In this document: in pieces, positions 6,009 to 26,667 of the stretch
How positions within the stretch are numbered: the first letter of the stretch is position 1
Layout of the letters: each line of letters begins with the position of its first letter
Virus record (IMG/VR): IMGVR_UViG_3300025697_001371
Coordinates: 1-31,724 of that record
Length of the DNA stretch: 31,724 bases
Direction: 5' to 3' (one strand)
DNA from: a virus
Notes under the pieces: generated by a model
The model's input: only the letters and a program-made list of their open reading frames with translations
Told to the model about the DNA's origin: nothing
Databases searched by the model: none
Translations under genes and position numbers: made by a program

Positions 6009-9000
6009 ATGGCAGGTGTAAGTGATTGCACCGCTGGCTAGTAATAGTCAGGCAATAACGGGGTGAATTCAGGGAAACCTTAACATGTAATGATGATGGC
6101 AATCCTGAGCGAAGCTTGAGGGGAAACTCTCTTGAACGTGCAGAGACTAATTTTCGATCCCTAACAAGTTATGTTGAGGGAGGTAATGAAAACATGAGCG
6201 CCCTACATCTTAATGAGATGATGATATAGTCCGATTCTTATCGGAAACGGTAAGGTAAGAGATAAACAATCTTACATAAGGCGATGACATAGAAGTCAGT
6301 TTACAGAGACGATTTAGTAATTTCTTGGTCGTCTTTAACTCTTTAAGTAGGGGAATTACATGGATATTTTAACATCAGAAAAGGTTTATTTCTTGCATAT
6401 AGTTGATGGTATTAGTATTTTAAGTATCTCTAATATGTTTGATGTTAAGAAACCAAAAGTTTATAGTATGTTGTATAAATACTACACAAAGTTAGCAGAT
6501 GATTTAATTAAATCTGGTAATTATGACGAAGCTCTTCGTAATGTAGTTGTAGAGTTTGATTGTAAATGTGGTTGTGGCGAAAAAGTAGGCAAGTTAGGAA
6601 CTCCCTATAATATGGTAAAACCACATTGTATTAAGGAACATCAAGGGGTATTATGCAAAGGTACAAGATGTTCTGAAGAGTCCAGAGCTAAGATGAGAAA
6701 ACCCAAGTCTCTAGAGCATAGAAAGAATATATCTATAGGTAGAATGGGATATACACCTAAGCAAGAAGCTATAGATAAGTGGAAGAGAACTATGAGTGAA
6801 AAGGGGTATGACCATCTGAGAACTCCAAAATTACGAGAAGCACAGCGCAATAGAATGTTAGGTAAGAAGAGAACTAAGCTACAGAAACTTAACATGAGTA
6901 AATATATGAAAGGTAGGCCCTATAATAATTATAGACGGGGGCATTATTTGTCTATAAAGAACAATAAGTCTTTATTTTATAGGTCTTCATTAGAACTTAA
7001 AGCTTATATAATTTTAGAGTATGAAGACGATGTAGAGAAATTTATTGTTGAACCTTATACAATTCCTTATTTATATGAGGGAATGATTAGGAAGTATAGG
7101 CCAGATATTGAGATATATTATTGTGATGGTAGCATAAGTTTGGTGGAGGTTAAACCTAATATGGAGTTAGTTTGGGAGATAAATCAAGCTAAATTTTGTG
7201 CGGCCAGAGCTTATTGTGCTAAAAATAGAATGACATTTGAAATAATGACTGATACCTACTTAAATGAAGTTATAGTGAAACGGGGTGAACTCAGGGAACA
7301 TCTAAACTCTTATTTGAAAGAGCAAGACAATCCTGAGCCAAGCTCATCGAATAAATCAATTGGTATTGTAGATGAGAAGGTGCAACGACTAATGGATGAA
7401 AATGATTGTATTGATAAGTCCAACACGAGCGCCCCACCCATTGCTCTAGTCAAGTAGTGGTATGATATAGTCTGAACTATATGGAAACATATAGAAGTAA
7501 AATTTAAATGATTTTACGGTAACACACTTTGGAAGAAAGATGCTTACAGGTACTTTTGGGAAGCTTATCCCGAAATGCCTCCGGTTTATGAGGAACTTTT
7601 TGAAATTGTTCCTTCGGACGCAGCGTAAACAAAACATGCGCGTAGTTAGCTAAATTCGGTGAAAACCTCTTGAAGGCAATACCGAGCGAATCCTATAAGG
7701 AGCGTGTAACGACTATGAATCTAAGTAGAGAAGAATTAAGAAGTGCAGTAATTGGCATGGTATTAGGAGATGGGTGCATCTCAAAGAGATGGAAGAATGG
7801 TGAAGCTTACTTTCAGATGACACATTGTGTAGCTCAATATGAATACATGTTGTGGAAACAAAACATCTTAGACGAAATAACTTCATCTAAAATACATCCA
7901 ACAACAAGAGTATTAAATGGTAAAACATTTCATGGTTATCATTTAGGGACTCTAAGACATCCATCATTTACCAAATTATATAAACGGTTTTATTACGATA
8001 AAGTGAAAGTTGTTGATGAGTATCTCGTCAAGAAAATAAACCCTTTAGCATTGGCTATATGGTTTATGGATGATGGAACAAGTGGAATAAATAAGGATAG
8101 AGGGGTTGGGGAGAATAGATCATATTATCTCTGCACTAATAACTTTGATTACGCTAATCAATTACTTTTAAAGAAAAGCTTAAAACTAAACTTTGGTTTA
8201 GATTGGAATATCAATAAAGCTGGGAAGTCTAAGGATGGTACATACAACTATAGACTTAGATTAGCAAATAGGCATAATGAGATGTTTATTGATATAATAA
8301 GACCGTATATTATACCATGTATGAGATACAAAATAGATTCTTAACGCTAACCAGGATATTGAATCCTGTGATATAGTCTGGACTACATGGAGACATGTAG
8401 AGGCTGGCAGAAATGATCAGCCCCACTTTTAAATAAGTGAGTAACAAATTCGATGAACAATTCACTTCGGCCATTGGCCTTGGAGAGTTGTTAGAAAAGC
8501 CTGAAGGCGAGGACATGCAGACCGATACTCCGATTGAATCCTACACCATAGTGTGTAAGAATCGTTCTTTTGGTCGTATTGTTCGTATGAGTTATGAGAC
8601 TGTTGCGGATGCTCAGAAGGTTGGGAATATGCTGCAGACTACTGTCGGTACTTGGGGTAGACAGCTCCCAATTACCAAAGAGAAGTTCTACGCTAAATTT
8701 TTCAACCATGGGGCGTTAACTGCAGGGAGAGATGATCCGTTTGATAATACCATTACTGGTGTTGTTACCGATTCGTCTGGAGACTTTATTTATGATAGTC
8801 TTCCTCTGTTTGATACAGCGCATCCTGATAAGGTTGGTAATACGTATATTAATTATACTGAGACTAGGGCGCTGACTGCGGCTAATATTAAGACCACGTA
8901 TACTACGTTTACTACTACTAACAACAGGGATGAGAGAGGGGATATCATAGATATCTCTCCCGATACTCTGTTAATCCCACCGGCGCTTAAGTTTACTGCC

Positions 9001-9297: not shown

Positions 9298-9351
9298 ATA
9301 TCATATTTGACATATACGATTTTACTTGACATATATGTTCAAATGTGATAT
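9298..9351. repeat. Imperfect inverted repeat and direct TTGACATATA repeat at a promoter
   Basis: Left arm ATATCATATTTGACATAT (9298-9315) is an imperfect inverted copy of ATATGTTCAAATGTGATAT (9333-9351). Within it TTGACATATA occurs twice (9307-9316 and 9326-9335), 19 bp apart. The arms cover the -35 and much of the -10 box of the promoter described next, as an operator would. A hairpin in the transcript of the upstream capsid gene is also possible, though no T-run follows it. Confidence 0.55.
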
Positions 9352-9354
9352 AAT
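9326..9354 (+). promoter_or_regulatory. Consensus sigma70-type promoter before HNH 3
   Basis: TTGACA (9326-9331), a 17-bp spacer, and TATAAT (9349-9354): an exact consensus for bacterial housekeeping sigma. Predicted start about 9361-9362 is the first base of the outer helix of the HNH-leader RNA, so the transcript would begin with that structure. It lies immediately after the capsid stop and would serve HNH 3 and the downstream genes. Confidence 0.75.
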
Positions 9355-9361
9355 ATAGTCA

Positions 9362-9448
9362 AAAGTGGGGATAGAGATTCTAGACTCGAAAAGGGGTTTT
9401 CCTGACCCCCCTCCCCACTTTAAACTAACAGGGGTTATCTTAGGGGGA
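9362..9448 (+). promoter_or_regulatory. HNH-leader RNA element, diverged copy 3
   Basis: Outer helix AAAGTGGGGA (9362-9371)/TCCCCACTTT (9412-9421) is 10 bp, replacing the short GGGT/ACCC helix of the other copies. Inside lie GAG/CTC (9374-9387) and a GGGG (9393-9396)/CCCC hairpin with loop TTTTCCTGA (9397-9405). That loop can pair with CAGGGG (9429-9434) or, over nine positions with several G.U pairs, with the SD segment TTAGGGGGA (9440-9448). Same topology as the other four but different sequence; which downstream partner is used is unresolved. Confidence 0.6.
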
Positions 9449-9455
9449 TAATATT

Positions 9456-10562
9456 ATGAGAAAATTAACAATTGAGTATGTAAGAGAAAGAATAGCAGAA
9501 ATTGGATATGAGCTTCTATCTGAGGAATATATAAATTGTAGTACTAAATTGGAAATTCTATGCGATGAAGGGCATACCTACAAGACTTCTTGGGATAATT
9601 TTAATGATGGGTGTATTTGTCCTGAGTGTCAAGGCAACAAGAAAAAAACTATCGAAGAAGTTGCTGAATATGCTGCAAAATTAGGTTATAAGCTTCTCTC
9701 TACTAAATATATCAATTGTATGACCAAATTGGATTTTAAATGTGAGAAGGGGCATACTTTTCCTATGAGTTTCAATGATCTTTCTCAAGGTCATGATTGT
9801 GCAGAATGTGTTGGCAAGAAGAAAAAGACCATAGAGGAAATTAGAAAATTTGCTGAGGATATAGGATATGAACTTTTAAGTGATGAATATATTAATAGTA
9901 AGACTAAGTTAATTTTTAAGTGTCCAGAAGGTCATGAATTTCCTATGATCTGGAATAGTTTCCAGCAGGGACAAAGATGTCCCCATAAAAGATATGTTGG
10001 AATGGAGAAAGAAGGAAATCCCAATTATAGGGGTGGGGTAACTAAATTAGGTATACCCCTCTATGACACTTATGCTCATCAAATTGATTGGATTGAAGAA
10101 GTAAGACGTAGCCCAAACAATGAGAATTGGTTACAAGTTAGATGTACCAATTGTAATGAATGGTTTATACCTAAAACTAGTGAGGTTACTTGCAGATTAT
10201 CAGCCATAAATGATAAAAGTGCTGGTGAGTGCAGATTCTATTGTTCGGAAGAGTGCAAACATTCTTGCCCTATCTTTGGCCAACATGAATGGCCTAAAGG
10301 CTTCAAGAAAGATTATCACAGGCCCCACGATTATGCAGTCTGGGCCGATCTCATAAAAAAACGAGATGGCCATATCTGCCAAATCTGTGGCGAAACAGAA
10401 GGCATAAATGCACATCACTATGAAGGCCTACATGTCAATGATATGCAGTCACTAGACCTTGATATGGGTGTAACATTATGTGCTGAGTGTCACCATAGAT
10501 CACACACAGGTAGTGGGTGCACTTATTATGATTTACAGAAACGAAACGTATGTGGGAATTAA
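9456..10562 (+). CDS. Free-standing HNH homing endonuclease, three zinc modules (copy 3)
   Basis: 368 residues with the best-preserved modules: about 4-58, 64-118 and 124-177, with CDEGH, CEKGH and CPEGH first halves and CPEC, CAEC second halves (the third ends CPHK). The PLYDTYAHQID block, zinc ribbon (CTNC, CSEEC) and HNH nuclease (CQIC, HH, CAECHH) follow. Its last 150 nt are nearly the same as in the copy at 12182, so the nuclease ends share a recent common source or are homogenised by gene conversion. Driven by its own consensus promoter; SD AGGGGGA, 7 nt from ATG, may be held in the leader structure. Inserted directly behind the intron-laden capsid gene. Confidence 0.87.
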   Translation: MRKLTIEYVRERIAEIGYELLSEEYINCSTKLEILCDEGHTYKTSWDNFNDGCICPECQGNKKKTIEEVAEYAAKLGYKLLSTKYINCMTKLDFKCEKGHTFPMSFNDLSQGHDCAECVGKKKKTIEEIRKFAEDIGYELLSDEYINSKTKLIFKCPEGHEFPMIWNSFQQGQRCPHKRYVGMEKEGNPNYRGGVTKLGIPLYDTYAHQIDWIEEVRRSPNNENWLQVRCTNCNEWFIPKTSEVTCRLSAINDKSAGECRFYCSEECKHSCPIFGQHEWPKGFKKDYHRPHDYAVWADLIKKRDGHICQICGETEGINAHHYEGLHVNDMQSLDLDMGVTLCAECHHRSHTGSGCTYYDLQKRNVCGN

Positions 10563-12105: not shown

Positions 12106-12174
12106 GGGTAAGAGTCTAATTAACTCTGAATGGGGGTGCCTTAATCACCCCCAACCCTTAACCTATTAAGGAGG
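12106..12174 (+). promoter_or_regulatory. HNH-leader pseudoknot RNA element, copy 4
   Basis: Complete copy: GGGT (12106-12109) can pair ACCC; hairpin AGAGT/ACTCT (12111-12127); hairpin GGGGGTG (12132-12138)/CACCCCC (12146-12152). Loop CCTTAAT (12139-12145) is the exact reverse complement of ATTAAGG (12165-12171), which overlaps the SD AAGGAGG (12168-12174). Except for the loop and its partner the element is almost base-for-base the same as that at 17216. Confidence 0.82.
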
Positions 12175-12181
12175 AATTGAG

Positions 12182-13114
12182 ATGGGAAAGAAATTAACGA
12201 TTGAGTATGTGAGAAGTAAGATGGTAGAGGTTGGATATGAGCTCTTATCTGACATATATATAAATAACAGAACCAAATTGATAGTTAGGTGCGATAAGGG
12301 GCATACATATCTTACTTCTTGGAATAACTTTCGTCAAGGATGTAGATGTCATGACCCACGTGCAAAGAAAACAATAGAAGAAGTGAGAGCTTTTGTTGAG
12401 AGTATTGGATATTATCTTGTTTCAACAGAGTATGTAAATTCTAGAGCTAAGATGATAACAATATGTTCTAGAGGGCATATATATTATATTAATTGGGATG
12501 GCTTAAATGCAGGAGATAGGTGTTCAAAGTGTGATGACGACAAGAGAAAAGGTGAAAATTGTCATCTATGGAAAGGTGGGGTAACTAAGCTTGATATTAT
12601 ATTATATGACACATTTGCTCATCAAATAGATTGGTGCGAAGAAGTAAGAAGAGATCCAGATAATAAGGATTGGCTACAGGTTAGGTGTACAAATTGCAAT
12701 GAATGGTTTATGCCAACAAGAAAAATGGTCAATAATAGAATTACAGCTGTTAATAATATAAATAAAGGAGCATGTAGATTTTATTGCTCAGAAGAATGCA
12801 AACATTCTTGCTCAATCTATAGGCAGGTAGAATACCCTAGAGACTTTAAATCAGACTACCACAGACATCCAGACTATACAGTCTGGGCTAAAATGATAAA
12901 AGAACGAGATAACTATGAATGTCAAATATGTGGCGAAACAGAAGGTATAAATGCACATCACTATGAAGGCCTGCATGTTAATGATATGCAGTCACTAGAC
13001 CTTGATATGGGTGTAACATTATGTGCGGAGTGCCACCACAGATCACATACTAGAAAAGGCTGTACTTATTATGATCTGCAGAAACGAAATGTGTGTAAAC
13101 AAAAACAAACCTAA
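12182..13114 (+). CDS. Free-standing HNH homing endonuclease, two zinc modules (copy 4)
   Basis: 310 residues. Only two modules precede the shared half: about 5-58 (CDKGH, ending CRCHDP with the last Cys displaced) and 63-117 (CSRGH, CSKC). The central block reads ILYDTFAHQIDWCEEVRRDP, the zinc ribbon has CTNC and CSEEC, and the nuclease has CQIC, HH and CAECHH. Its HNH-coding DNA matches copy 3 closely near the 3' end and copy 5 closely around 12890-12965, as expected of a mosaic. It sits between two small virion-type genes and is followed by a strong hairpin. Confidence 0.86.
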   Translation: MGKKLTIEYVRSKMVEVGYELLSDIYINNRTKLIVRCDKGHTYLTSWNNFRQGCRCHDPRAKKTIEEVRAFVESIGYYLVSTEYVNSRAKMITICSRGHIYYINWDGLNAGDRCSKCDDDKRKGENCHLWKGGVTKLDIILYDTFAHQIDWCEEVRRDPDNKDWLQVRCTNCNEWFMPTRKMVNNRITAVNNINKGACRFYCSEECKHSCSIYRQVEYPRDFKSDYHRHPDYTVWAKMIKERDNYECQICGETEGINAHHYEGLHVNDMQSLDLDMGVTLCAECHHRSHTRKGCTYYDLQKRNVCKQKQT

Positions 13115-15703: not shown

Positions 15704-17221
15704 ATGACAGATAAAAAATTGTATTTTGGGCCGGACGAGAAGATAGTGGTATTCTTTTCAATATCAGAATTAGGTTGGCACTTACAGATGCTACAAGGAC
15801 GTATGAGACAACTCAAACAAACTAAGTATCCAGATCATAAGTTCATTTGTTTTTGTGATTTAGATAGGCACGTATTTCATCAAGATTTCGTATTCACAAC
15901 AATCGCCCTTCCCAACTTTTTCTACGAAGCGGGGCTAGAGCGAGATTGCTTTGAGGCACCTCCTCCAGAGTCTCCTCCAGGAGCACTTACAGATCCAGTT
16001 ATGTATGCAAAACTGATAGAGTACTTTAGGGGATTCTACGATCATACTTCTGAGAATACTGTGGAAATTTGGCCACCTAGAGGTTGCAGTCAATGGGCTA
16101 AGAATCAAATTCAACTTTTCTGCAAATACACGACTGCACCAATCCCCAATGAACGTCCGGTCATAACGATTTTTCCAAGGGGAAGGGCGAGAGCGGCAAA
16201 TAGAAACGTACCACCCTCTGTTTGGCACGGGATAGTGGATAGTCTGAAACAGACATTCACAGTAGTTTTAGCGGGCACACCGGAAGGTGCTTGTTTAGGC
16301 AATTATCCGAAAGACCAAAGTGTGATTAATTTGATAAGCGATACTCCAGATACTGAACGAATTATACAGTGGCTTAATACAAGTGTATGTTCCATTTCTT
16401 CACAGAGTGGGGGAACTCATATTAGCTTACTTTCAGGATGTCCTTCATATATCATAGGCCACGAAAGACAACGCCATTGTGTAGACGAAAATAGACTTAA
16501 CACACCAACTACTTTTAGAACTGTCCCTGGGAATAGTTATATGAGTATTAGTGCGGAGCAGGTGTTGGATGATGTGCAAACTTTTCTTTATAACTTGCAA
16601 GAGGCTGGCATGTTCGAAAAATTGGACCGCCCGGCTCTTCGCAATTTACAAGGTCAGAAAGATCTTGTTGGTGTTGAGTTAGGAGTTTTCAAGGCGGCTA
16701 ATGCAGCGAATATTCTTCAGTTCCTTGACATTAAGAAGCTGTATTTAGTTGACCCATTTCTTAGTTATGCAGGGAAAGAATTGGACGTGAAGACTTCAGA
16801 GGAAATTGAAAAAACAGCAAACCTTAATTTGAGGCAGTATCCAGCAGACAAGGTGGAGTGGATTAAAAAGAAATCTGTTGATGCTGTTGATGACACCCCA
16901 GATGATTTGGATTTTTGTTATCTTGATTCTGATCATACTTACGAAAATGTTATGGTTGAGCTTGAATTATACTACAAAAAAGTCAAAGATGGTGGAGTTA
17001 TTGGTGGCCACGATTACGATAAATCCTCTGCAGACAATGGGGTAAAACGTGCAGTGGACAGCTTTTTTAAGGAGAAGGGTTTGGAAGTTCATTCTAAGAT
17101 GTGTCGTGATAGTGGAGGTCATACTATAGATTGGTGGGTAATAAAACCTACTACGTATGACGCTGTTCTGGAAAGAGACGCAGATATTCTAAGAGAAATG
17201 ATAGATAAGTCAATAGGGTAA
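15704..17221 (+). CDS. Glycosyltransferase (GT9-like) fused to a class I methyltransferase
   Basis: 505 residues, two domains. The N-terminal 1-300 looks like a GT-B glycosyltransferase of the heptosyltransferase/ADP-heptose type, with VITIFPRGR at about 153-161 and the late SSQSGGTHISLLSGCPS sugar-nucleotide loop (232-248). The C-terminal domain (about 320-480) is a Methyltransf_24-type SAM enzyme: LVGVELGVFKAANA, YLVDPF, DLDFCYLDSDHTYENV, GGVIGGHDYD. The pair would add and methylate a sugar. First gene of the glycan island, with SD GAGGAG. Its stop codon TAA is part of the GGGTAAGAG that opens the next HNH-leader element, so the element inserted exactly at the gene end. Confidence 0.75.
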   Translation: MTDKKLYFGPDEKIVVFFSISELGWHLQMLQGRMRQLKQTKYPDHKFICFCDLDRHVFHQDFVFTTIALPNFFYEAGLERDCFEAPPPESPPGALTDPVMYAKLIEYFRGFYDHTSENTVEIWPPRGCSQWAKNQIQLFCKYTTAPIPNERPVITIFPRGRARAANRNVPPSVWHGIVDSLKQTFTVVLAGTPEGACLGNYPKDQSVINLISDTPDTERIIQWLNTSVCSISSQSGGTHISLLSGCPSYIIGHERQRHCVDENRLNTPTTFRTVPGNSYMSISAEQVLDDVQTFLYNLQEAGMFEKLDRPALRNLQGQKDLVGVELGVFKAANAANILQFLDIKKLYLVDPFLSYAGKELDVKTSEEIEKTANLNLRQYPADKVEWIKKKSVDAVDDTPDDLDFCYLDSDHTYENVMVELELYYKKVKDGGVIGGHDYDKSSADNGVKRAVDSFFKEKGLEVHSKMCRDSGGHTIDWWVIKPTTYDAVLERDADILREMIDKSIG

Positions 17222-17284
17222 GAGTCTAATTAACTCTGAATGGGGGTGCCTCTATCACCCCCAACCCTTAACCTATAGAGGAGG
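17216..17284 (+). promoter_or_regulatory. HNH-leader pseudoknot RNA element, copy 5
   Basis: Hairpin AGAGT/ACTCT, then GGGGGTG (17242-17248)/CACCCCC (17256-17262). Loop CCTCTAT (17249-17255) is the exact reverse complement of ATAGAGG (17275-17281), which overlaps SD AGGAGG (17279-17284). GGGT (17216-17219) can pair with ACCC after the hairpin. The 5' end coincides with the stop of the preceding gene. Confidence 0.82.
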
Positions 17285-17291
17285 TAGAGAG

Positions 17292-18059
17292 ATGCGTAGT
17301 AATAAGAAAAAAACAATAGAATTTATTATGGGGTATGCCGCAGGTAGGAGAGGGGATGAGCTCTTATCCAAGATATACATAAACAATAAGATTAAGTTGA
17401 AATTTAAGTGTGGTAGAAAAGGGCACATATTTTGGATGTGTTGGGCTAACTATCAGACAGGGAAAGAGTGTAAAAGATGTAGTATAGAGAGGATGCAAGG
17501 TGTAGGTAATCCTAGTTATAGGGGGGGAGTAGTAAAATTAAATATTCCTTTATATGACACTTTTGCACATCAAGTAGATTGGTACGAAGAAGTGAGAAGA
17601 GACCCAGAGAATAATGATTGGCTTCAAGTTAGATGTACAAATAATGAGTGTGGTAAATGGTTTACTCCAAAGACGTCAGAAGTTTATAATAGAGTATATG
17701 CTGTAGATCATATAAATCAAGGAGCATGCAGATTTTATTGCTCTGAGGAGTGTAAACAAAGTTGTAGTATCTTTGGGCAGATAAAATATCCTAAAGGCCT
17801 TAAACCGGATTATCATAGACACCCAGACTACACTATTTGGGCTAAAATGATAAAAGAACGAGATAACTATGAATGTCAAATCTGTGGCGAAACAGAAGGC
17901 ATAAATGCACATCACTATGAAGGATTAAAAGTTAATGATATGCAATCATTAGATCTTGATATGGGTGTAACATTATGTAAGAAGTGCCATGATAGAGTGC
18001 ACTCCCAACCAGGTTGTACAACCTATGATCTACAAGAGAGGAATGTATGCAACCAATAA
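17292..18059 (+). CDS. Free-standing HNH homing endonuclease, one zinc module (copy 5)
   Basis: The shortest member, 255 residues: one module (about 7-63, CGRKGHIFWMCW and CKRC), then PLYDTFAHQVDWYEEVRRDP. The zinc ribbon here has CTNNEC in place of CTNC (one extra residue), then CSEEC. The nuclease has CQIC, HH and CKKCH. Around 17845-17925 its DNA is nearly identical to copy 4. SD AGGAGG lies in the pseudoknot. Its last 13 nt overlap the start of the glycosyltransferase at 18047, so it has become part of the island's transcription unit. Confidence 0.86.
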   Translation: MRSNKKKTIEFIMGYAAGRRGDELLSKIYINNKIKLKFKCGRKGHIFWMCWANYQTGKECKRCSIERMQGVGNPSYRGGVVKLNIPLYDTFAHQVDWYEEVRRDPENNDWLQVRCTNNECGKWFTPKTSEVYNRVYAVDHINQGACRFYCSEECKQSCSIFGQIKYPKGLKPDYHRHPDYTIWAKMIKERDNYECQICGETEGINAHHYEGLKVNDMQSLDLDMGVTLCKKCHDRVHSQPGCTTYDLQERNVCNQ

Positions 18060-18949
18060 TAGTCATTGGCGTATCAGACGTAGAATCATCAACTACAGTA
18101 TCAATTTGTAAAGCATTTGCTAAGATCCGACCAGTCATACCTATTAATTATAGGACGATTATATGGAGATTCGGAATGCCATATTTCGAGCGGCTTGTTT
18201 TAGATACTGTAAAAAAGTATGATCCCTATATGATGTTCTGCTGCAAGATTAATGGCGTTAATCCGCAACTTCTTAAAGATTGTAGTGAGCTTACAAAAGT
18301 AATTTATTGGCTCATGGACCCTCCAGAAACAGGAAAACAGTGCGGGGCAATATCTTTAGCTAAAGCTTCTCATTTCTCATTTTGTAGTGGGGGCGGTGCA
18401 GTACAGTGGATGATAGATGAGGGCGTTGAAAATTGTCATTTGGTGTTTGATGGCTGTGATACTGATATTTTTAAGCCAGTTCCAGCTGTATCTGATTATA
18501 TGGCTGATATCTCTTTTATAGGAGCTAAGAATCAAGAAAGGGACCTTTTCTTACAGGCCTTAGCAGACAATGGATTCCATACAAAAGCATATGGTTCAGG
18601 ATATTCAAGTAGTGTAATAAATGCACAGTTTGCTCAAGTATGTAACAGCTCAAAGATGATGTTATCTATGAACACATACAATCATCCAGACTACTTTTCC
18701 AATAGACTCTTACGGTATATGGGTTGTGGAAGCTGTACACTTCATTACGACCCAACAGAGACACTAAAAAAATACTTTAAGCCAGGAAAAGAGATAGTCT
18801 TATTCAAAGACAAAGAAGACTTGGTAGAGAAAGCTAAGTCACTTACAGATGAGCAAATTGGTAATATTGGTTTGGGCGGTAGGGATCGTACGATTAAACA
18901 CTATACTTGGAGCCATACGACTAACCACATCCTTCAGAGAATAAAATGA
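18047..18949 (+). CDS. CgeB-like glycosyltransferase
   Basis: 300 residues. GT-B architecture of the CgeB/Glyco_trans_1_2 group: N-terminal Rossmann start (PIIVIGVSDVE), a middle VIYWLMDPPE segment, DGCDTDIFKPV before a DISFIGAKNQERD strand. The C-terminal nucleotide-sugar loop reads SNRLLRYMGCGSCTLHYDP, followed by FKDKEDLVEKAKSL. Transfers a sugar from a nucleotide donor; acceptor unknown. ATG lies within the end of the HNH gene after GAGAGG. The TGA overlaps the next ATG (ATGA). It works with the neighbouring transferase of the same family, probably on successive sugars. Confidence 0.75.
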   Translation: MQPIIVIGVSDVESSTTVSICKAFAKIRPVIPINYRTIIWRFGMPYFERLVLDTVKKYDPYMMFCCKINGVNPQLLKDCSELTKVIYWLMDPPETGKQCGAISLAKASHFSFCSGGGAVQWMIDEGVENCHLVFDGCDTDIFKPVPAVSDYMADISFIGAKNQERDLFLQALADNGFHTKAYGSGYSSSVINAQFAQVCNSSKMMLSMNTYNHPDYFSNRLLRYMGCGSCTLHYDPTETLKKYFKPGKEIVLFKDKEDLVEKAKSLTDEQIGNIGLGGRDRTIKHYTWSHTTNHILQRIK

Positions 18950-19896
18950 AAATATTACTGATGTTTGATAGATATATCCCCCGCGATAGTAGGACGCGCG
19001 TTGGTTTTGCAGCTAAGTTAGGGGGAGACACTCATGAGTTTATGGTCTATGGCCCAGGTGAAGATAGCAAAGTATCTCCAGTTGAATATGATGAGAAGAT
19101 TACTGCAAAGGATTTATTAGATCTCACTCATCCAGATGTGCTATTATTTTTTCTTTATTCTCCTAATTGCTATAAATGGCTCCCGAAAGATATTTGTAAA
19201 TTGTCAATTCCATCAGTAATTGTGGAAGAGGATCACTATATAGTTGGAAGAGATGATAGTGTTTTTGATTGGTATAAAGAGATGAACTTCTCCCTATTAG
19301 TTCGTAGACATTGCTATGATGAGAAAGCTTCTATGTCGTCAGTATGGCTACCATTTAGTGCTAATGAATGGGAGTTTGAACCTACAGACGAGGTAAGATT
19401 AAACAAGATTGGGTTTGCAGGAAGTTGGAAAAGTAGCCAACCAGCATATGATATAAGACGAAAAGCTATTAGTGTTTTAGTTGAGAGTGGGCAGTTAGAC
19501 AAAAAGTATGGTAGAATTTGGGGCAAAGAGTATACAAATTATTTACAGGAACATATTGGTTGTTTAGCTTGTACTGGAGGATTTTTACATACACCACTAG
19601 CTAAAACATTCGAGATACCACTTTGTGGTACTGCAATGCTAACTAACAGAATGGAAGAGAAAGAGTTGTTGTGGGGCAAAGATAAGTGCTATTTTGAGTA
19701 TAAAGATGATATGTCAGATATAGTTGATGTTGCTAATGTGATTTTAAATGACAAGGATCAGGTTGCAGAAGTAACAGCTAATGCCTTGAGGGAAGTTAGA
19801 GCTAAACATACTGATGAGAAAAGGCTTATAGAATTTGAAAACATATTGGAGGGGTTAATAGCAGGTAACAGTATACCTAAAATTTGGAGTCAGTAA
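18946..19896 (+). CDS. Second CgeB-like glycosyltransferase
   Basis: 316 residues with the same general plan: MKILLMFDRYIPRDS, HPDVLLFFLYSPN, VIVEEDHYIV, then NKIGFAGSWKSS. The C-terminal donor-binding segment HTPLAKTFEIPLCGTAMLTN is followed by YKDDMSDIVDVANVIL. The residue pattern E-x7-E of many GT-B retaining enzymes is only partly visible. Coupled on both sides by 4-nt and 3-nt overlaps. Cytoplasmic, no membrane segment. Whether it modifies host polysaccharide or a virion protein cannot be told from sequence. Confidence 0.7.
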   Translation: MKILLMFDRYIPRDSRTRVGFAAKLGGDTHEFMVYGPGEDSKVSPVEYDEKITAKDLLDLTHPDVLLFFLYSPNCYKWLPKDICKLSIPSVIVEEDHYIVGRDDSVFDWYKEMNFSLLVRRHCYDEKASMSSVWLPFSANEWEFEPTDEVRLNKIGFAGSWKSSQPAYDIRRKAISVLVESGQLDKKYGRIWGKEYTNYLQEHIGCLACTGGFLHTPLAKTFEIPLCGTAMLTNRMEEKELLWGKDKCYFEYKDDMSDIVDVANVILNDKDQVAEVTANALREVRAKHTDEKRLIEFENILEGLIAGNSIPKIWSQ

Positions 19897-20621
19897 TGGA
19901 AAACAGATTTTTGATTTTTAGTTGTGGATTCAATTGTGAAAGTGATGTATTACAACATGTATGTAGTATTGCTGGTCAGACGTACAAAAACTATAAACAT
20001 ATTTTAGTTGATGATGCTAGTACAGACAATACCCTTGGTAATTTACGATCACTCTGTTCAATAAATCCAAAAGCTAAGTTGATAACTAACGATAAAAATC
20101 AAGGATGGCTACATAATTCAGTTGATTATCTATGCCCACAAGATGATGATATAGTTGTTATAGTAGATATGGATGATTTTTTAGCTGCCCCCTTTGTCTT
20201 AGAGCATCTAAATAATGTGTATAATAAGATCGGGTGTTGGATGACTTACGGATCTTTTGTGTGGAAAACTAAGAATATTGTAGAAGGTAAGGCTTATCCT
20301 GAAGAATGTGACTATAGAAATTTTGAGTGGCGGGCGGTTCACTTACAGACCTTTAAGGGGTTTTTATGGAATGAAATAGATAAAGATGACTTTATTCTTC
20401 CAGCTGGGAGCTATGCCCAAAGTTGCTATGATCAAGCAGTGATGATACCGATCTTGGAGATGGTCCCTTTTGAGAAACAAATGTTCATTTCAGATGTTCT
20501 TTATGTTTATAATGATGGTAATCCTTTAAATATAGGGCACACTAGGAAGCAGGAACAGATAGATAATGAAATGTATTTTCGTGGTTTACCCGAATATGAG
20601 GAATTAGAAGTATGCGAGTAG
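19896..20621 (+). CDS. Family 2 glycosyltransferase (GT-A)
   Basis: 241 residues from ATG 19896 in the TAATG overlap; a TTG at 19884 would extend it by four codons. N-terminal GT2 fold: FLIFSCGFNCESDV, QTYKNYKHILVDDASTDNT with the nucleotide-binding Asp pair, VIVDMDDFLA holding the metal-binding D-x-D. Later strands and a DQAVMIPILEMVP helix fit the acceptor half. The usual large C-terminal extension is absent. The end overlaps the radical SAM gene by 10 nt. Likely adds one sugar in the island's pathway. Confidence 0.82.
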   Translation: MENRFLIFSCGFNCESDVLQHVCSIAGQTYKNYKHILVDDASTDNTLGNLRSLCSINPKAKLITNDKNQGWLHNSVDYLCPQDDDIVVIVDMDDFLAAPFVLEHLNNVYNKIGCWMTYGSFVWKTKNIVEGKAYPEECDYRNFEWRAVHLQTFKGFLWNEIDKDDFILPAGSYAQSCYDQAVMIPILEMVPFEKQMFISDVLYVYNDGNPLNIGHTRKQEQIDNEMYFRGLPEYEELEVCE

Positions 20622-21679
20622 CACTATTAACAGCTAAACCTAATGAAGATTGCTTAGTAGGACCTCATCGTTTTGCGACTGACGAGAAGAGATTTCCAAT
20701 AGGAATCGGTATGCTATATTCGGTTCTTAAACAGAATCATATTGATGTTGAAATATTTGATAGATATTGTGACCCTAATGCTTGGGACAAAGATAACTTT
20801 GAAGACTATAGTTTTGTTGGTATCTACATAGCTTCGGTCTGTACAGATGATATATTTGATAGTATAGATAAGTTGAAATGTGAAGTTATTGCAGTTGGTG
20901 GTCCTCACGCATACCTCTATCCAGATAGTTTTCCTGAGAAGGTATCTTATATTGTCAGAGGTGAGGCAGAAAAGATCATTGTACCATTGGTTAATGAAGA
21001 GTTTATTGAGAGAGTCATAACAACAGATAGGATAAAGAACTTAGATGAACTACCCAGATACCCCTACGGTATATTCCTCAACAGGGACATATACACATGG
21101 GAGTACCCATTTAGCAAAACAACTCCTATTGTAGTTGTTAATAGCTCACGTGGATGCCCATTCAATTGCTCATTCTGTAGTGTTAAGAAGATTTGGGGTC
21201 GTGTATATACGTACTATTCAGCAGAGAGGGTATTAGATGATTTACAGTACATCAAATCTATTGGTGGTAAGGGGGTCTATTATCGAGAGGATAACTTTAC
21301 CTGTAACAAGAAAAGACTCATAGAGCTCTGTGAACTTATGATTAAGAACAACGTTAATCTCGAATTCGCCTGTGAATCTAGAGTGGATACTGTAGACTAT
21401 GAGACAATGAAATTAATGAAAGATGCTGGATGTGTCGGATTTTACGTTGGCGTTGAAAGTCTATCTAATAGAATGCTCGATATATACAATAAAGGAGTTA
21501 CCTCAGATCAAACTATAGAATTCTTTGAGAATGCCAATAAGCTTGGTATAAAAACAGCAGCCAGTATGATAAAAGGACATCCAGAAGAGACTGTAGAAGA
21601 TATAAGAATACAAAATAGGTTAATTCATAAATTAAAACCCACAATGTTATGGTATAATCAGTTCAGGAGTGAGGGATGA
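20612..21679 (+). CDS. B12-binding-type radical SAM enzyme
   Basis: 355 residues. N-terminal Rossmann-like B12-binding domain (GIGMLYSVLK, VIAVGGPHAYLYP, YIVRGEAEK) without the DxHxxG cobalamin ligand motif. The radical SAM core follows, with GCPFNCSFC at 181-189 (C182, C186, C189 binding the 4Fe-4S cluster), YYREDNFTCN, VGVESLSNRML and IKGHPEETVED. This class performs methyl transfers and C-C or C-S chemistry on natural products and glycans. Overlaps the methyltransferase downstream by 4 nt. The specific substrate is unknown; sugar modification is suggested by neighbours. The sequence ends early, without a long C-terminal domain. Confidence 0.82.
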   Translation: MRVALLTAKPNEDCLVGPHRFATDEKRFPIGIGMLYSVLKQNHIDVEIFDRYCDPNAWDKDNFEDYSFVGIYIASVCTDDIFDSIDKLKCEVIAVGGPHAYLYPDSFPEKVSYIVRGEAEKIIVPLVNEEFIERVITTDRIKNLDELPRYPYGIFLNRDIYTWEYPFSKTTPIVVVNSSRGCPFNCSFCSVKKIWGRVYTYYSAERVLDDLQYIKSIGGKGVYYREDNFTCNKKRLIELCELMIKNNVNLEFACESRVDTVDYETMKLMKDAGCVGFYVGVESLSNRMLDIYNKGVTSDQTIEFFENANKLGIKTAASMIKGHPEETVEDIRIQNRLIHKLKPTMLWYNQFRSEG

Positions 21680-22281
21680 TTAAATTAAACTTAGGTTGTG
21701 GTGGAAGACCTCTCAAGGACTATATCAATGTTGACTGGGATACTTTAGATGAATTGAGGGTGAGATATCCCACATATAAATTTGATGATGATTTGATTGT
21801 TAAGCAGTACGATATATTTAATCTCCCATTTGAAGATAATTCAGTTGATGAAGTTAGAGCAGATGCTTTATTAGAACATCTATCTTTTAAGGAAGAGCCG
21901 ATATTCCTATATGAGGTTAAGAGAGTACTGAAATCGAATGGTATATTCAAATTTTCTGTGCCCGACTTTGCTAACTTAGTAAAGAAATGGTTAATTGGAG
22001 TTGATGATTGGAAAGACTTCTACAGAGATGATGAAGAGGCTATAAAAGAGCTACATTGGTTTGGGCAGTATTCACAGAAGCTGGATCAGAGGTGGGGATA
22101 TCTAATGGCTTGCTTATTTGGTCCTCAGAATAGTGAAGGTCAGTTTCATAAGAATTGTTATTCCAGATCTAAAATTAATGCTATGATGAAAAAGCTAGAT
22201 TTTTATGAAGTAGAGCAATCATATTTTCATTGGAAAGATACAGAGATTAGAATGATAGGTGTAGAAGCAAAAAAATTATGA
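21676..22281 (+). CDS. SAM-dependent methyltransferase (type 11-like)
   Basis: 201 residues. Motif I IKLNLGCGGRPLKDYINVDW with the SAM-binding glycines; motif II YDIFNLPFEDNSVDEVRADA; EHLSFKE before the conserved VLKSNGIFKFSVPDF strand. This is the predicted-SAM/Methyltransf_11 type often found in glycan clusters. Acceptor not deducible. Starts in an ATGA overlap with the radical SAM gene and ends in an ATGA overlap with the sulfotransferase, so the three are translated as a coupled set. Confidence 0.8.
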   Translation: MIKLNLGCGGRPLKDYINVDWDTLDELRVRYPTYKFDDDLIVKQYDIFNLPFEDNSVDEVRADALLEHLSFKEEPIFLYEVKRVLKSNGIFKFSVPDFANLVKKWLIGVDDWKDFYRDDEEAIKELHWFGQYSQKLDQRWGYLMACLFGPQNSEGQFHKNCYSRSKINAMMKKLDFYEVEQSYFHWKDTEIRMIGVEAKKL

Positions 22282-23057
22282 GCAAGACAATTATCCATAT
22301 TGGGGCAAATAAAACTGGTTCTACCACGCTTCAGAGATACCTTTTTGCCAGATCAAATGCTATACAGTACATTGGTGAAGATTGTGTAGGATATTTTGAT
22401 ATAGAAGTTGCACTAAATTCCATAGTCACAGATGATGACATTTATTATGAAGCTTCAAAAGTCAAGGATATATTTTCTTCCAGATTTAATGATGAAAATA
22501 AAATATGGGTTTACTCTAATGAGGATATTACACGTAGCAGAGTACCGTCTCAATGTGCTAAACGGTTATATGAGTTAGCTCCAGATGGTGAAATTCTTAT
22601 AGTATTAAGAGATCAAGTTACAGCTATTTCATCGTGGTATACTAATCATGGCGCATATTTAAGGGGAGTTCCTTATAGATATTGGAGACAACCTGTAGGT
22701 TTTAATGAGTGGATGGAGCATTGCTTGAGATTTTTGCATTATAGTCCTTTAGATGGCTTCTTCTATTTTCAGATACTGGAGTTGTATGAGAAGTTATTTG
22801 GTAAAGATAAGATACATATATTGTTTTATGAGGATATGTTAAATAATTTTGATGAATTTGTTACTCAATTATGTGATGTGTTGGGAATAGATTCAGAAGA
22901 AGGATTTAAGTGTTTGTTAGATGGGTGGGAAAGAAAGTCAAGCAGTAGTCATACTTTAACAGAACCTTGGAAAAAGAAAATAATTGAGTTATACCGAGAA
23001 GACAATCAGCTACTTTTTGATAAATATAATTATGCTTATAATTATAATAAAGGGTAA
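22278..23057 (+). CDS. Sulfotransferase
   Basis: 259 residues. The PAPS 5'-phosphosulfate loop is HIGANKTGSTTLQRYL at residues 7-22 with catalytic-type Lys12. The 3'-phosphate site is ILIVLRDQVTAISSWY with Arg111 and Ser118/119. The C-terminal part contains IHILFYEDMLNNFDEFVTQL, the usual YEDL-like segment. It should transfer sulfate from PAPS to a hydroxyl of a sugar or protein; no PAPS-synthesis genes are visible, so host PAPS would be needed. Surrounded by methyltransferases and glycosyltransferases, it probably sulfates the glycan made by this island. Confidence 0.82.
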   Translation: MSKTIIHIGANKTGSTTLQRYLFARSNAIQYIGEDCVGYFDIEVALNSIVTDDDIYYEASKVKDIFSSRFNDENKIWVYSNEDITRSRVPSQCAKRLYELAPDGEILIVLRDQVTAISSWYTNHGAYLRGVPYRYWRQPVGFNEWMEHCLRFLHYSPLDGFFYFQILELYEKLFGKDKIHILFYEDMLNNFDEFVTQLCDVLGIDSEEGFKCLLDGWERKSSSSHTLTEPWKKKIIELYREDNQLLFDKYNYAYNYNKG

Positions 23058-23060
23058 ATA

Positions 23061-24086
23061 ATGAAAAGATGTGGAGTTTGTAATACCGTATTAGAAGTTG
23101 TGTTGGATTTAGGAAAACAGCCTATAGCTAATAATTTTATAACTAAGGAGCAATTTGGGTCTGAGTATTTTTATAGCTCAGAGTTAGCTTTTTGCCCGAA
23201 TTGTTTTGCTGTACAGATGGTTAATCATCCAGAAGTGGGAGATGTATTTAATGAAAATTACGCCTTCTTTACTTCTACGTCAGAATATATGAAGAGAAAG
23301 TATAAACTATTGGCTGAATCTATAGAGAGTAGATTGGAAGATAATAGTTTAGTGATTGATATTGGCGGTAATGATGGTACCTTATTAAGCAACTTAAAAG
23401 CAGAGTGTGCTGTATTAAATATTGAGCCATCAGCTAATGTAGCAGAAATTTGTGAAAATATGGGAATTACAACTTTAGTAGAGTTCTTTGATTCAGATAT
23501 AGCTGATAGTGTATTAAATGACTATGGCAGTGCTGATGTTATTACAACTATGCATACCTTTGGTCATGTGTATACTCCATCTAATTTTGTTGAAGGCATA
23601 AAAAAATTACTTAAACCTAAAGGTGTTTGGATCTTAGAAGAATCTTATATAGGTTCTATGTTACGTAAAATTGCCTATGACCAAATATATAATGAGCATG
23701 TTTTTTATTTCTCAATAGTCGCTCTTAATAATTTATTGAAGCGTTATGATTTAGGCATAGAACGTATAGAATTTCCTGTACAGCATGGTGGCTCAATTAG
23801 ATATGATATAACACATGCTTCAAATATATCAGATGAGGCACATGCTATGCTTGATACTATGATTAAACAAGAAGGGTTACATTCAACAAAGAGCCTACTT
23901 AAATTTGGGGACTTTGTAAGAGAATCAAAACGTATTCTAGTAAAATATCTTACTGAACTAAGAGATAATGGGCAAGAAATTGTAGGGTATGGAGCTGCAG
24001 CAAAGAGCACTACAATACTTAATTATTGTGATATAGATTCTTCATTGATATCGAAGATTTATGATACAACCCCCCTGAAACATTAG
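23061..24086 (+). CDS. Sugar C-methyltransferase (TylM/TcaB9-like), C-terminus lost by frameshift or deletion
   Basis: 341 residues. N-terminal zinc domain with C4/C7 and C45/C48 and the family phrase LDLGKQPIANNF; SAM domain with VIDIGGNDGTLLSNL and TTMHTFGHVYTP; the active-site region YDQIYNEHVFYFS; C-terminal Rossmann start GYGAAAKSTTILNYC. Relatives run to about 400 residues, methylating carbon 3 of 4-keto sugars. Here reading stops at TAG 24084-24086 just past a C6 run (24070-24075), within the C-terminal domain. The frame one base away continues at once (next entry). Catalytic residues are present, so some function may remain. Confidence 0.75.
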   Translation: MKRCGVCNTVLEVVLDLGKQPIANNFITKEQFGSEYFYSSELAFCPNCFAVQMVNHPEVGDVFNENYAFFTSTSEYMKRKYKLLAESIESRLEDNSLVIDIGGNDGTLLSNLKAECAVLNIEPSANVAEICENMGITTLVEFFDSDIADSVLNDYGSADVITTMHTFGHVYTPSNFVEGIKKLLKPKGVWILEESYIGSMLRKIAYDQIYNEHVFYFSIVALNNLLKRYDLGIERIEFPVQHGGSIRYDITHASNISDEAHAMLDTMIKQEGLHSTKSLLKFGDFVRESKRILVKYLTELRDNGQEIVGYGAAAKSTTILNYCDIDSSLISKIYDTTPLKH

Positions 24087-24367
24087 ATAGTGACCCCCAA
24101 AAGTTGGCTGAGCGTTATAATTTGCCATATAAAAAAGGGAGACCTGCTAATTTATCTAATAAAAAGACTGACTATAGATATTATTATAGTGATGATTTAG
24201 CTGAGTTGGTTAGTAACACTTATGATAGGGAATTGAAATTATATGGATATAGTTTTGATAAATTAGTATGTGATGATAGTAACGAAATGTGTGGACCTAT
24301 ATCGAGAAGTACAAAAAGTAATTTATCATATGTTTATACTACAAATATGTTTACGGATAATAGGTGA
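24065..24367 (+). pseudogene. Sulfotransferase C-terminal fragment, out of frame with the methyltransferase
   Basis: The frame entered by shifting one base at the C6 run reads PETLDSDPQKLAERYNLPY, then YRYYYSDDLAELVSNTYDRE and LKLYGYSFD. This is the usual tail of sulfotransferases (yYd-elaelV...y--d-e-fgY-F), without any PAPS-binding loop. A TTG at 24104 could open a separate 87-residue ORF, but no SD supports it. Restoring one C would fuse it to the methyltransferase. I read this as a deletion joint between a methyltransferase and an older sulfotransferase gene, with or without a later one-base loss; a sequencing error in the homopolymer cannot be excluded. Confidence 0.55.
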
Positions 24368-24370
24368 GTT

Positions 24371-25501
24371 ATGAATTGGCCATTACAAGAAAATGCTATA
24401 GATGAAGTGGATATCAATCTTTTAGCTGAATTTGTTAAAACTACTAAAAGATTTACACAGGGTGAAAAGGTACGAGAGTTTGAAGAGACTTATTCAAAGT
24501 GGTTGGGCACAAAATATAGTGTGTTTGTCAATTCTGGGAGTTCAGCGAATCTCCTTTTGATAGCATCTTTGAAAGAGCTATATCGTTGGGGGCCTGAAAC
24601 TGAGATTATTGTTCCTGCGGTTACTTGGTCTACTAATGTGGCCCCCATAATCCAGCTAAATCTGCGACCTGTGTTTGTAGATGTAAATTTATATGATCTA
24701 TCTTTTAACCACTATAAAATGATGTTTGCAATAACACCAAATACTAAAGCAATTTTTGTCACTCATTTATTAGGTATTCCTGCAGGTATTCCAAAAGATG
24801 TGATGATGATTGAGGATTGCTGCGAAGCACATGGAGCCACTATAGATAGGATTAAAGTAGGCAACTTCGGGATTGGTTCAACCTTCTCATTTTATTGGGG
24901 TCATCATATAACTTCAATTGAAGGTGGGATGGTTTGTACAGATGATGAGGAGTTACATAAGCTTCTGTTACTAAAAAGATCACATGGGTTGGCTAGAGAG
25001 CTACCAGAACAATATCATGCAGAAATAAAGGAGAGGTATCCAGATGCTAATTTTTCTTTTTTGTTCCTTACTGATGGCTTCAATTTACGTAATAGCGAAT
25101 TCAACGCGGTGGTAGGATTGCAACAACTACGAAAGATTGATGAGTTTATAGATAAAAGGAATGAAAACTACAAATACTTTTTAGAGATTTGTAAGCCTTA
25201 TGGGGGGCATTTATTGTTACTTGATAGTGAGGGTATATCTTCTTTTTGTTTTCCTTTTATATTTAGACGAAAGGGGATGCTTAAGGATTTCTTGAAAGTA
25301 CTTGAAGAGAATGAAATAGAAAGTAGATCTCCTATAGTGGGAGGAAACCTCACTAAACATCCATTTTTAGTTCAGTACAGTGGTGATTTTCCAAATGCAG
25401 ATTTTGTTCACACTAATTCTTGCTATATAGGAAATAATCAATTCGTTGATTATGATAGATTGGATAGGCTAAAAGAAATATTGAGGAAGTTTTTTAAGTA
25501 A
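24371..25501 (+). CDS. DegT/DnrJ-family PLP enzyme with His in place of the PLP lysine
   Basis: 376 residues, type I PLP fold. NSGSSANLLLIASL (phosphate-binding), VPAVTWSTNV, MIEDCCEAHGA (ring-nitrogen Asp), then TFSFYWGHHITSIEGGMV where aminotransferases have FSF-xx(x)-K. Residue 178 is His, aligned with the Schiff-base Lys. This is the hallmark of sugar 3-dehydratases such as ColD and the RfbH/E1 group, which remove the C3 hydroxyl of a 4-keto sugar with PMP. The product would be a 3-deoxy sugar. Followed by a second DegT enzyme with a normal Lys, it suggests a 3-deoxy or dideoxy amino sugar pathway. Substrate assignment is inference. Confidence 0.8.
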   Translation: MNWPLQENAIDEVDINLLAEFVKTTKRFTQGEKVREFEETYSKWLGTKYSVFVNSGSSANLLLIASLKELYRWGPETEIIVPAVTWSTNVAPIIQLNLRPVFVDVNLYDLSFNHYKMMFAITPNTKAIFVTHLLGIPAGIPKDVMMIEDCCEAHGATIDRIKVGNFGIGSTFSFYWGHHITSIEGGMVCTDDEELHKLLLLKRSHGLARELPEQYHAEIKERYPDANFSFLFLTDGFNLRNSEFNAVVGLQQLRKIDEFIDKRNENYKYFLEICKPYGGHLLLLDSEGISSFCFPFIFRRKGMLKDFLKVLEENEIESRSPIVGGNLTKHPFLVQYSGDFPNADFVHTNSCYIGNNQFVDYDRLDRLKEILRKFFK

Positions 25502-25513
25502 GGAGATGATTAA

Positions 25514-25771
25514 ATGCCGAAGAAATTGTCAATAAATGGTGTAAAGAGCGCACTATCTGATAAAGGGTACGAGCTATTAAATAGAGGTACTGTGAGTAAG
25601 GCCACTCTCATATCTATAAAATGTATGAAATGTGAGAGCGTAAGGCAGATTGTTGCAGGCAGTTATATGACACCAGGGGAATGTTCAATATGTAAACCTG
25701 TAATAGAGGAAAAGGATGAAAATACCGTTTTGCAAGCCGGATCTGAAGATTTCCGAGTCCGAATTAATTGA
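25514..25771 (+). CDS. Orphan zinc module related to the HNH N-terminal repeats
   Basis: 85 residues. KLSINGVKSALSDKGYELLN, then IKCMKCESVRQIV and GECSICKP. This matches one N-terminal module of the HNH genes (initial helix, GYELL, paired CxxC) although the GHxxxxxW part is replaced by CESVRQIV. No HNH domain, no leader pseudoknot. SD AAGGAGATG-type sequence precedes the ATG by 7 nt. Its last 56 nt overlap the aminotransferase ORF, so its original 3' end was probably lost. It could be a remnant of a sixth endonuclease or an independent DNA-binding protein. Confidence 0.55.
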   Translation: MPKKLSINGVKSALSDKGYELLNRGTVSKATLISIKCMKCESVRQIVAGSYMTPGECSICKPVIEEKDENTVLQAGSEDFRVRIN

Positions 25772-26666: not shown

Positions 26667-26667
26667 A

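Follow-up and report, generated by a model that had tools for sequence, protein, structure and literature searches.

The virus record IMGVR_UViG_3300025697_001371 of IMG/VR was analyzed from position 1 to position 31,724; this stretch of 31,724 nucleotides (nt) is called the window in the following. It contains five related HNH-family genes on the plus strand, which start at 65, 3017, 9456, 12182 and 17292, and each of them stands behind a leader RNA in which a hairpin loop can pair with the region of the Shine-Dalgarno (SD) sequence. The first gene (65–1216) codes for N-terminal zinc-binding-like repeats and matches Pfam HNH, whereas the others were assigned to the family because they align with each other and with the first one. 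The gene at 3017–4102 gave only a sub-threshold Pfam match to DUF4379, that at 9456–10562 matched CapR but not HNH, that at 12182–13114 had no Pfam match of its own, and that at 17292–18059 matched HNH with an E-value of 9e-4, which is short of the curated cut-off. A tblastn search with the 17292 protein matched 23 records, with identities of at most 47% among the matches listed.

Leader fold in the window

The leader has a length of approximately 80–100 nt and consists of an outer helix (P1) enclosing two hairpins (P2 and P3), with the P3 loop pairing to the SD region as a predicted pseudoknot. In the leader at 17216–17284, the 5′ strand of P1 (GGGT, 17216–17219) pairs with 17264–17267 according to the sequence and the minimum free energy (MFE) fold, and the equivalent helix covaries in the alignment of class B leaders introduced below. 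P2 (17221–17237) reads AGAGT-C-TAATTA-ACTCT, and its palindrome TAATTA (17227–17232) forms a putative kissing loop. P3 (17241–17263), which was also present in the MFE fold, is composed of TGGGGGTG and CACCCCCA around the loop CCTCTAT (17249–17255). The 3′ strand of the pseudoknot, ATAGAGG (17275–17281), is the exact reverse complement of this loop and covers the first GG of the SD sequence GGAGGT (17280–17285).

The leader at 12106–12174 shares 91% identity with the one at 17216 over 82 bases, the differences being located mainly in the loop, its partner on the SD side and the bases before the start codon. Its elements are P1 GGGT (12106–12109), the P2 palindrome TAATTA (12117–12122), the P3 loop CCTTAAT (12139–12145) and the pseudoknot strand ATTAAGG (12165–12171). 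In the leader at 2938–3009, P1 starts with GGGGT (2939–2943), the P2 palindrome is CTGCAG (2951–2956), and P3 (2965–2986) exposes the loop CTATAC (2973–2978), which matches the strand GTATAG (3000–3005). The leader at 1–60 lacks P1 and the 5′ half of P2, because the record begins there; its P3 (14–35) comprises TGGGGGTG (14–21), the loop CTACAT (22–27) and CACCCCCA (28–35), and ATGTAG (48–53) serves as pseudoknot strand. In these four leaders, the P3 loop of 6–7 nt is the exact reverse complement of the bases abutting or overlapping the SD sequence, as had been claimed in an earlier note on this DNA, and the positions were confirmed. The G-C to A-T change which the note had seen in the P3 stem of the 2938–3009 leader is present, and the second hairpin (P2) and the outer GGGT/ACCC helix (P1) appeared as described there in the MFE folds of all three complete leaders. 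The z-scores of the MFE values (–0.4 to –1.4) were not significant alone and are uninformative; MFE folding is blind to the pseudoknot.

The earlier note had counted five such leaders. This held true for four, whereas the fifth, at 9364–9455, is a divergent and weaker variant with P1 at 9364–9370/9413–9419, the P2 loop palindrome TCTAGA at 9379–9384 and a P3 stem formed by GGGG (9393–9396) and CCCC (9406–9409). Its loop bases CCTGA (9401–9405) match TTAGG (9440–9444) by five pairs, one of which is G-U, and this is below the six pairs set in the permutation test. TTATC and GATAA are able to close a small hairpin around the SD sequence, and a strict descriptor of the fold did not recover this leader. 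Due to the five-pair match and the possible hairpin at the SD sequence, the fifth leader gives weak support. A variant of this kind, in which the SD sequence lies in the loop of its own small hairpin and the P3 loop pairs with about five bases, was seen at 4896–4982 of locus L031 as well as at 9364–9455 of the window.

Covariation of the P3 loop with the SD region

For the analysis of the pairing, P3 loops were taken from MFE folds regardless of the SD sequence, and the longest Watson-Crick match to the SD region of the same leader was compared with those to the SD regions of other leaders. The sample comprised 76 leaders, of which nine (L113, L143, L152, L133:8770, L138:2947, L204, L212, L033, and L031) could not be parsed automatically and one was removed as a duplicate. 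Among the 66 leaders tested, 51 showed at least six contiguous Watson-Crick pairs with their own SD region, compared to 2.8% of 4274 mismatched pairings, and in 10,000 permutations of the set the mean was 2.8 and the maximum 11, so that chance pairing was rejected. Without the rows that had first been recognised by their pairing (the window, L031–L034, L037, L038, L041, L046, L058, and L062), at least six pairs were reached by 37 of 51 leaders. When the rows used for the covariance model R1 described below were omitted in addition, 15 of 27 leaders had at least six pairs (permutation mean 1.6, maximum 7 in 5,000). Inspection by eye revealed a pairing of 6–7 bases in eight of the nine unparsed leaders and of only five in L031. 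Model or protein scans later added 13 new leaders, of which 12, likewise judged by eye, retain the pairing, with L407 as the exception. L133, L135, L143, L152, L154 and L203 have a larger P3 loop (GAAA, the pairing letters, then GAGTA or similar) on a short closing stem and retain the loop-SD pairing. A 32-base construct of loop and partner was excluded from the statistics, because its register had been picked by complementarity.

An alignment of 32 leaders (A2), made with MAFFT without structure, contained double-sided changes in 22 of 26 pairs, i.e., in 7/7 of the pseudoknot, 4/5 of P1, 4/5 of P2 and 7/9 of P3. Its covariation score was 0.462 compared to 0.210 after shuffling and at most 0.151 after sliding. 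Since nearly all rows of A2 were chosen for showing the pairing, its covariation cannot tell how frequent the pairing is. The compensatory changes in the pseudoknot and the permutation tests bear out the covarying loop-SD pseudoknot proposed in the earlier note, and a covarying structure of P1, P2, P3 and the loop-SD helix is well supported by these sequence comparisons. The note had also considered the case that no further homologues keep the complementarity; it was found to be kept in relatives from IMG/VR, from Enterocloster phages and from a contig binned with Lokiarchaeota.

Relatives, downstream genes and palindromic P2 loops

A protein scan of IMG/VR yielded 77 distinct loci. By eye and descriptor, the same layout with different letters was detected ahead of distant HNH genes, with CCACGAA/TTCGTGG in L032 and CCTATTT/AAATAGG in L038. 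The strict descriptor matched 12 of 101 HNH and 19 of 806 control sequences, compared to 1.3 per shuffled set. For 89 of the 101 HNH genes it gave no match, so that the leader is common in only part of the family. One of the controls, L037:2370, turned out to be a member located ahead of a LAGLIDADG gene, and in L238, a relative of L037, the pairing has switched to CTACTC/GAGTAG. A loose energy-based descriptor (score ≤ –14) separated poorly, with 21 of 101 HNH and 108 of 806 control sequences matched.

Class B, the main class, is characterized by a conserved GGACAG and P2; the window leaders represent class A. Class B leaders were gathered by exact-pattern scans and then with R1, a covariance model of 32 leaders, and because many rows were gathered by P2 patterns, the counts for P2 and GGACA are biased. 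After near-duplicates and some false pattern matches had been dropped, the sources used in the R1 scans numbered 72, 51 of 58, 74 of 78 (HNH family A6), and 70 of 80 (GIY-YIG). Copies were present in 26 of the 74 A6 loci, not always ahead of the query gene, and in 2 of the 70 loci among the GIY-YIG matches listed. When 27 records picked from the collected loci were searched whole, 24 had matches with an E-value of 0.1 or lower, including seven in one 253-kb record and six in one 33-kb record. A blastn search of the leaders against named phages gave nothing recognisable among the matches listed, but a shorter query (20-base core) matched five Enterocloster phages. Two of these, CB457P1 and CB473P3, were examined and carry the leader with the pairing CTGCAA/TTGCAG ahead of a GIY-YIG-like gene annotated as ITEVIR. 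A second R1 match in CB457P1 is not a member, and the two weak matches which R1 gave in 13 other named phages, searched over their whole length under stricter filters, were on inspection not members either; a tblastn search with the L131 HNH protein matched no named phage. A pattern match in GTDB (L231) is located on contig DAOUVJ010000001.1 of a Lokiarchaeota bin, where R1 detected a second copy. The gene upstream of the L231 leader presumably encodes a tail sheath, which makes a viral origin of the contig probable, perhaps from a virus of the Lokiarchaeota bin or from a misbinned phage.

The genes downstream of the leaders encode proteins of the Pfam families HNH, GIY-YIG, LEM-3 GIY-YIG, LAGLIDADG_2, TnpB (Cas12f1-like_TNB, OrfB_IS605), NUMOD3 and DUF7487 and, furthermore, CapR/DUF4379 repeats with one weak nuclease match. 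Of 20 downstream proteins, seven had no Pfam family and one a sub-threshold family only. The earlier note had tied the RNA to HNH genes, which proved too narrow, as the same RNA also precedes GIY-YIG, LAGLIDADG and TnpB genes. This distribution also makes unlikely its suggestion that a self-repressing HNH protein binds the leader. The leader might instead be an operator for an RNA-binding protein of the phage or the host, other than each nuclease's own product. The T4 gene 32 pseudoknot, as described in the available parts of PMC3014915 and PMC535899, is a precedent for such a phage operator. We regard this explanation as unlikely: with unrelated nucleases behind one leader type, the products could each repress themselves only if RNA binding had evolved convergently, and the letters of the pseudoknot and of P2 vary freely.

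Several translational riboswitches combine a junction with a pseudoknot at the SD sequence, and the leader resembles them in architecture. The unpaired GGACA, nearly invariant in a set of which many members were collected by a GGACA-holding pattern, and an AAYCT-like stretch 5′ of the pseudoknot strand would suit a ligand-binding riboswitch of this type. However, the leaders tested matched no Rfam riboswitch, the downstream genes have mobility in common rather than a metabolite, and the junction letters differ between classes A and B, which leaves a riboswitch with a low probability, slightly below that of a protein operator. At the curated threshold, Rfam searches of the window and 15 further loci gave group I introns and tRNAs only, and a permissive search with the 17216 leader gave five matches, all under the family thresholds. 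A relation to omegaRNA/HEARO was rejected, as no Rfam match was obtained. The two group I introns of the window (RF00028; 6014–6254 and 7234–7494) lie near a TnsA-like nuclease gene (6360–7457) and a LAGLIDADG gene (7670–8344). They could be taken as a hint that the leader is the remnant of a self-cleaving or splicing ribozyme, a ribozyme being among the options named in the earlier note. This origin is the most improbable one considered here, since the leaders tested match no ribozyme family in Rfam and promoter-like sites border on P1, among them a candidate at 9326–9354 from which a transcript would start near the 5′ edge of P1.

Some further features were recorded. At 6848–6925 of L037, a 12-bp hairpin with the loop ACCTTACT, which is complementary to GTAAGGT, is located just before a 63-aa zinc-ribbon-like open reading frame (ORF) and is possibly another loop-SD pairing outside nuclease genes. 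In the window, a tRNA-Met gene (1304–1377) extends over the GTG listed as start codon for the ORF at 1354, which therefore probably begins further in. An 85-aa ORF (25514–25771) without a Pfam match looks by eye like a single N-terminal repeat of the HNH genes; only 12 nt separate it from the preceding gene, so that a leader has no room there. Judged from the sequence, positions 15704–28547 contain a long series of glycosyltransferase-, radical SAM-, methyltransferase- and aminotransferase-like genes.

The P2 loop, which was not a subject of the earlier note, is often palindromic: of 30 distinct loops, 18 contain a self-complementary 6-mer (null mean 1.7, at most 8 in 2000) and 23 a 4-mer palindrome (null 6.0). 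Elsewhere, 6-mer palindromes were found in 0 of 62 P3 loops and in 67 of 1696 background hairpins. For this test, 20 hairpins were entered by hand, with the whole 18-base string of L212 as loop and 10-base loops for L204 and L207, and the null used the same lengths. To allow for relatedness, each distinct loop was counted only once; several of the 18 have TGATCA, TGGCCA or TAATTA in common. The test was made after the palindromes had been noticed, and the leaders found since then mostly agree, with the exceptions TTGCT, GACG, GATA and TTTAGCG. Eleven different 6-mers occur, namely TAATTA, CTGCAG and TCTAGA in the window and TGATCA, TGGCCA, TGTACA, GTGCAC, TCATGA, TAGCTA, GTCGAC and TTGCAA elsewhere. 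In the 253-kb record with seven matches, P2 has AGCT, TGGCCA, TAATTA (twice), GATC, GTCGAC and GTAC. The exception GACG is found on three stems that differ from each other (L202, L285, and L401), and in L401 this loop is overlapped by the sequence GTCGAC. In murine retroviruses, GACG loops are self-complementary and dimerize via two base pairs, according to the available part of PMC7357161. A self-complementary apical loop kept under sequence change, as in kissing loops of the dimerization initiation site (DIS) type, is therefore a trend with exceptions. Because the palindromes vary in letters while staying palindromic, the P2 loop probably kisses its counterpart in another copy of the leader, which suggests mRNA-mRNA contacts.

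Palindromes and inverted repeats could also act at the level of DNA, as operator, homing site or element end, as the palindromes double as DNA dyads and the genes are of mobile kinds. However, several palindromes are shifted off the hairpin axis by one extra unpaired 5′ base (C-TAATTA, C-TGATCA, and C-TGTACA), the letters vary freely even within one record, TGATTA of L238 is self-complementary only by way of G-U pairs, and the loop-SD covariation requires a single strand. A role as DNA is therefore very improbable, and the putative kissing of P2 loops in the RNA is preferred.

Proposed control of nuclease translation and known systems

Just upstream of the fifth leader, a promoter-like TTGACA-17-TATAAT (9326–9354, plus strand) has 12 of 12 sigma-70 consensus bases and a TG before the second hexamer; this candidate promoter would begin a transcript at about the 5′ edge of P1. 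The motif TATAAATA, which we take to be the T4 late promoter core, was found upstream of 14 of 65 class B leaders, compared to 2.9% of 1300 control windows, some of the records being related. It ends 3–11 nt before the model start in 13 leaders and 34 nt before it in one. In the window, upstream stop codons end 10 nt before the first base of the 12106 leader, 6 nt before that of the 2938 leader and 6 nt after that of the 17216 leader. In a set of 74 leaders that contains a few near-duplicates, an upstream open frame of 100 codons or more ends no farther than 200 nt away in 44 cases, and in 28 of these the distance to the leader start is 20 nt or less. The promoter-like sites and adjoining genes indicate that the leader is located near the 5′ end of its own transcript, directly after a gene, or both, and at least some leaders are not read through, judged by TATAAATA and the candidate promoter of the fifth leader.

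These data bear on the best-competing alternative, a simple lock with translational coupling. The pseudoknot would lower initiation without sensing a signal, and ribosomes finishing the upstream gene would open P1 and thereby permit a certain amount of translation. The short distances of 6–10 nt in the window and of up to 20 nt in 28 of 74 leaders fit this explanation, as does the description of seven free-standing T4 endonucleases as promoter-less cassettes in the available part of PMC2988022. The 14 leaders with TATAAATA and the promoter-like site of the fifth leader speak against it, and it leaves the P2 palindromes unexplained; we consider it rather unlikely, although less so than the alternatives named above.

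We favor another reading, in which the RNA is a cis-acting 5′ leader of mobile nuclease genes. As the sequence comparisons show, it folds as P1 around P2 and P3, and all or nearly all of the P3 loop pairs with 6–7 bases at the 5′ edge of the SD sequence. The leader would thus be in competition with the 30S subunit for this edge, and the nuclease would be translated at a low level, as the position of the pairing suggests. This would fit the known control of T4 homing endonucleases by RNA structures blocking the ribosome-binding site (RBS), as far as covered by the available part of PMC2988022. With less confidence, the P2 loop would kiss a second copy of the same leader. More speculatively, the dimer would stabilise the SD-blocking fold, so that nuclease output would drop as the nuclease's own mRNA accumulates, a protein-free homotypic control. 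We infer repression, dimerization and their coupling, all three, from sequence, and for the reading as a whole, an SD-occluding pseudoknot lowering translation of mobile nucleases, with leaders pairing to their own copies and the dimer stabilising the block, we estimate a probability of about 0.55. A more far-reaching and tentative version, which we believe in clearly less, is a homotypic mRNA quorum control, in which unrelated selfish nucleases share a detachable RNA controller that lets each mRNA gauge its own copy number, the SD sequence being closed in the dimer. P2 loops would then kiss like-lettered partners only, and the leaders of one genome would tend to have their own palindrome and pseudoknot letters.

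Several observations weigh against repression by an SD-occluding, self-pairing leader. In 15 of the 66 leaders, the pairing has fewer than six pairs, in part due to a misparsed P3 (e.g., L135, L154, L157, and L203) and in part due to true loss (L122:4117, L207, and L148); L146, L144 and L231 have one G-U within the helix, and L133:114 is cut. Gene integrity alone does not account for where the pairing persists: L122:4117 and L207, with apparently broken genes, have lost it, but L116:969, L145, L052 and L205 retain it despite short or broken reading frames, and a near relative of the window has kept it in the 17216 leader though most of the HNH gene is deleted. The P2 loops TTGCT (several phages), TCGCT, GATA and TTTAGCG are not palindromic, so that P2 self-pairing is not universal. 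Classes A and B are linked by architecture and not by sequence score, as R1 is blind to class A leaders and reached a window leader only at E = 1. They have in common the layout, P3 closing pairs UR..YA in nearly all rows and a similar stretch before the pseudoknot strand, and likely form one family by descent.

Finally, in the TnpB and Enterocloster leaders the pairing sits just 5′ of the SD sequence and not over it. A pseudoknot can also activate translation, as in plasmid repZ, and could do so here, e.g., by keeping a standby site open. L151, L155 and CB457P1, in which the pairing ends just 5′ of the SD sequence and leaves it free, would agree with such a role. In 21 of 31 seven-base cases, however, the last two bases of the paired strand are the initial GG of the SD sequence, and we rate activation as improbable as a riboswitch.

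The leader is one of few candidates in microbes for an mRNA homodimer with a function, and it would merit its own class if dimerization proves functional. The RNA family covaries well, and the leaders tested gave no Rfam match; its occurrence ahead of mobile nucleases from several unrelated families suggests that these exchange one control module among each other. The presence of the leader in the isolated Enterocloster phages CB457P1 and CB473P3 opens the question to experiment.

No earlier description of such a leader was found in the open-access literature, and the main text of PMC2864571 does not contain the words "endonuclease", "homing" or "HNH". The genes of T4-type homing endonucleases (I-TevI, I-TevII, I-TevIII, segB, and Aeh1 mobE) have an RNA structure at the RBS and late promoters near it; the stable structure sequesters the RBS on early and middle transcripts, whereas late transcripts begin too far 3′ to form it (PMC2988022, available part). 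The leaders are alike in placing an RNA structure at the RBS of mobile nuclease genes. They differ from this plain hairpin in that the edge of the SD sequence pairs with the P3 loop across P1 within a three-helix fold, to which the fifth leader and L031 may add a small SD hairpin. Moreover, their promoter-like sites lie upstream of P1, and the predicted transcripts would contain the whole fold; these starts are predicted, and most leaders are without TATAAATA, which precedes P1 in 14 of 65 only. The gene 32 operator of T4, T2 and RB69 contains a pseudoknot 67 nt upstream of the start codon that nucleates gp32 binding (PMC3014915, PMC535899; available parts). Unlike it, the leader pseudoknot touches the SD sequence and serves HNH, GIY-YIG, LAGLIDADG and TnpB genes.

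As in the HIV-1 DIS, the 5′ leader has a 6-nt palindrome in an apical loop, which in L058 is GUGCAC itself, and GACG as an alternative P2 loop recalls the kissing loop of MoMuLV (PMC7357161, available part). In several P2 loops the palindrome is preceded by one unpaired base, as in the retroviral dimerization loop. In contrast to both retroviral elements, the leaders precede single genes in viruses of microbes, have an unrelated fold with an adjacent loop-SD pseudoknot, and would form a putative dimer. Natural self-association of RNA is also known from the homo-oligomeric RNAs GOLLD, ROOL and OLE, which are large compared to a leader of about 80–100 nt. In the SAM-II and preQ1-II riboswitches, a loop or tail pairing takes the SD sequence; the leaders differ from them by a different junction, the lack of an Rfam match and of a known ligand. 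The closest known systems are thus the RBS-blocking structures of T4 endonucleases and the gene 32 pseudoknot, which in the available descriptions both lack this fold, the palindromic loop and the spread over nuclease families, and we place the leader, as a variant for which we found no earlier description, among the SD-occluding leader RNAs.

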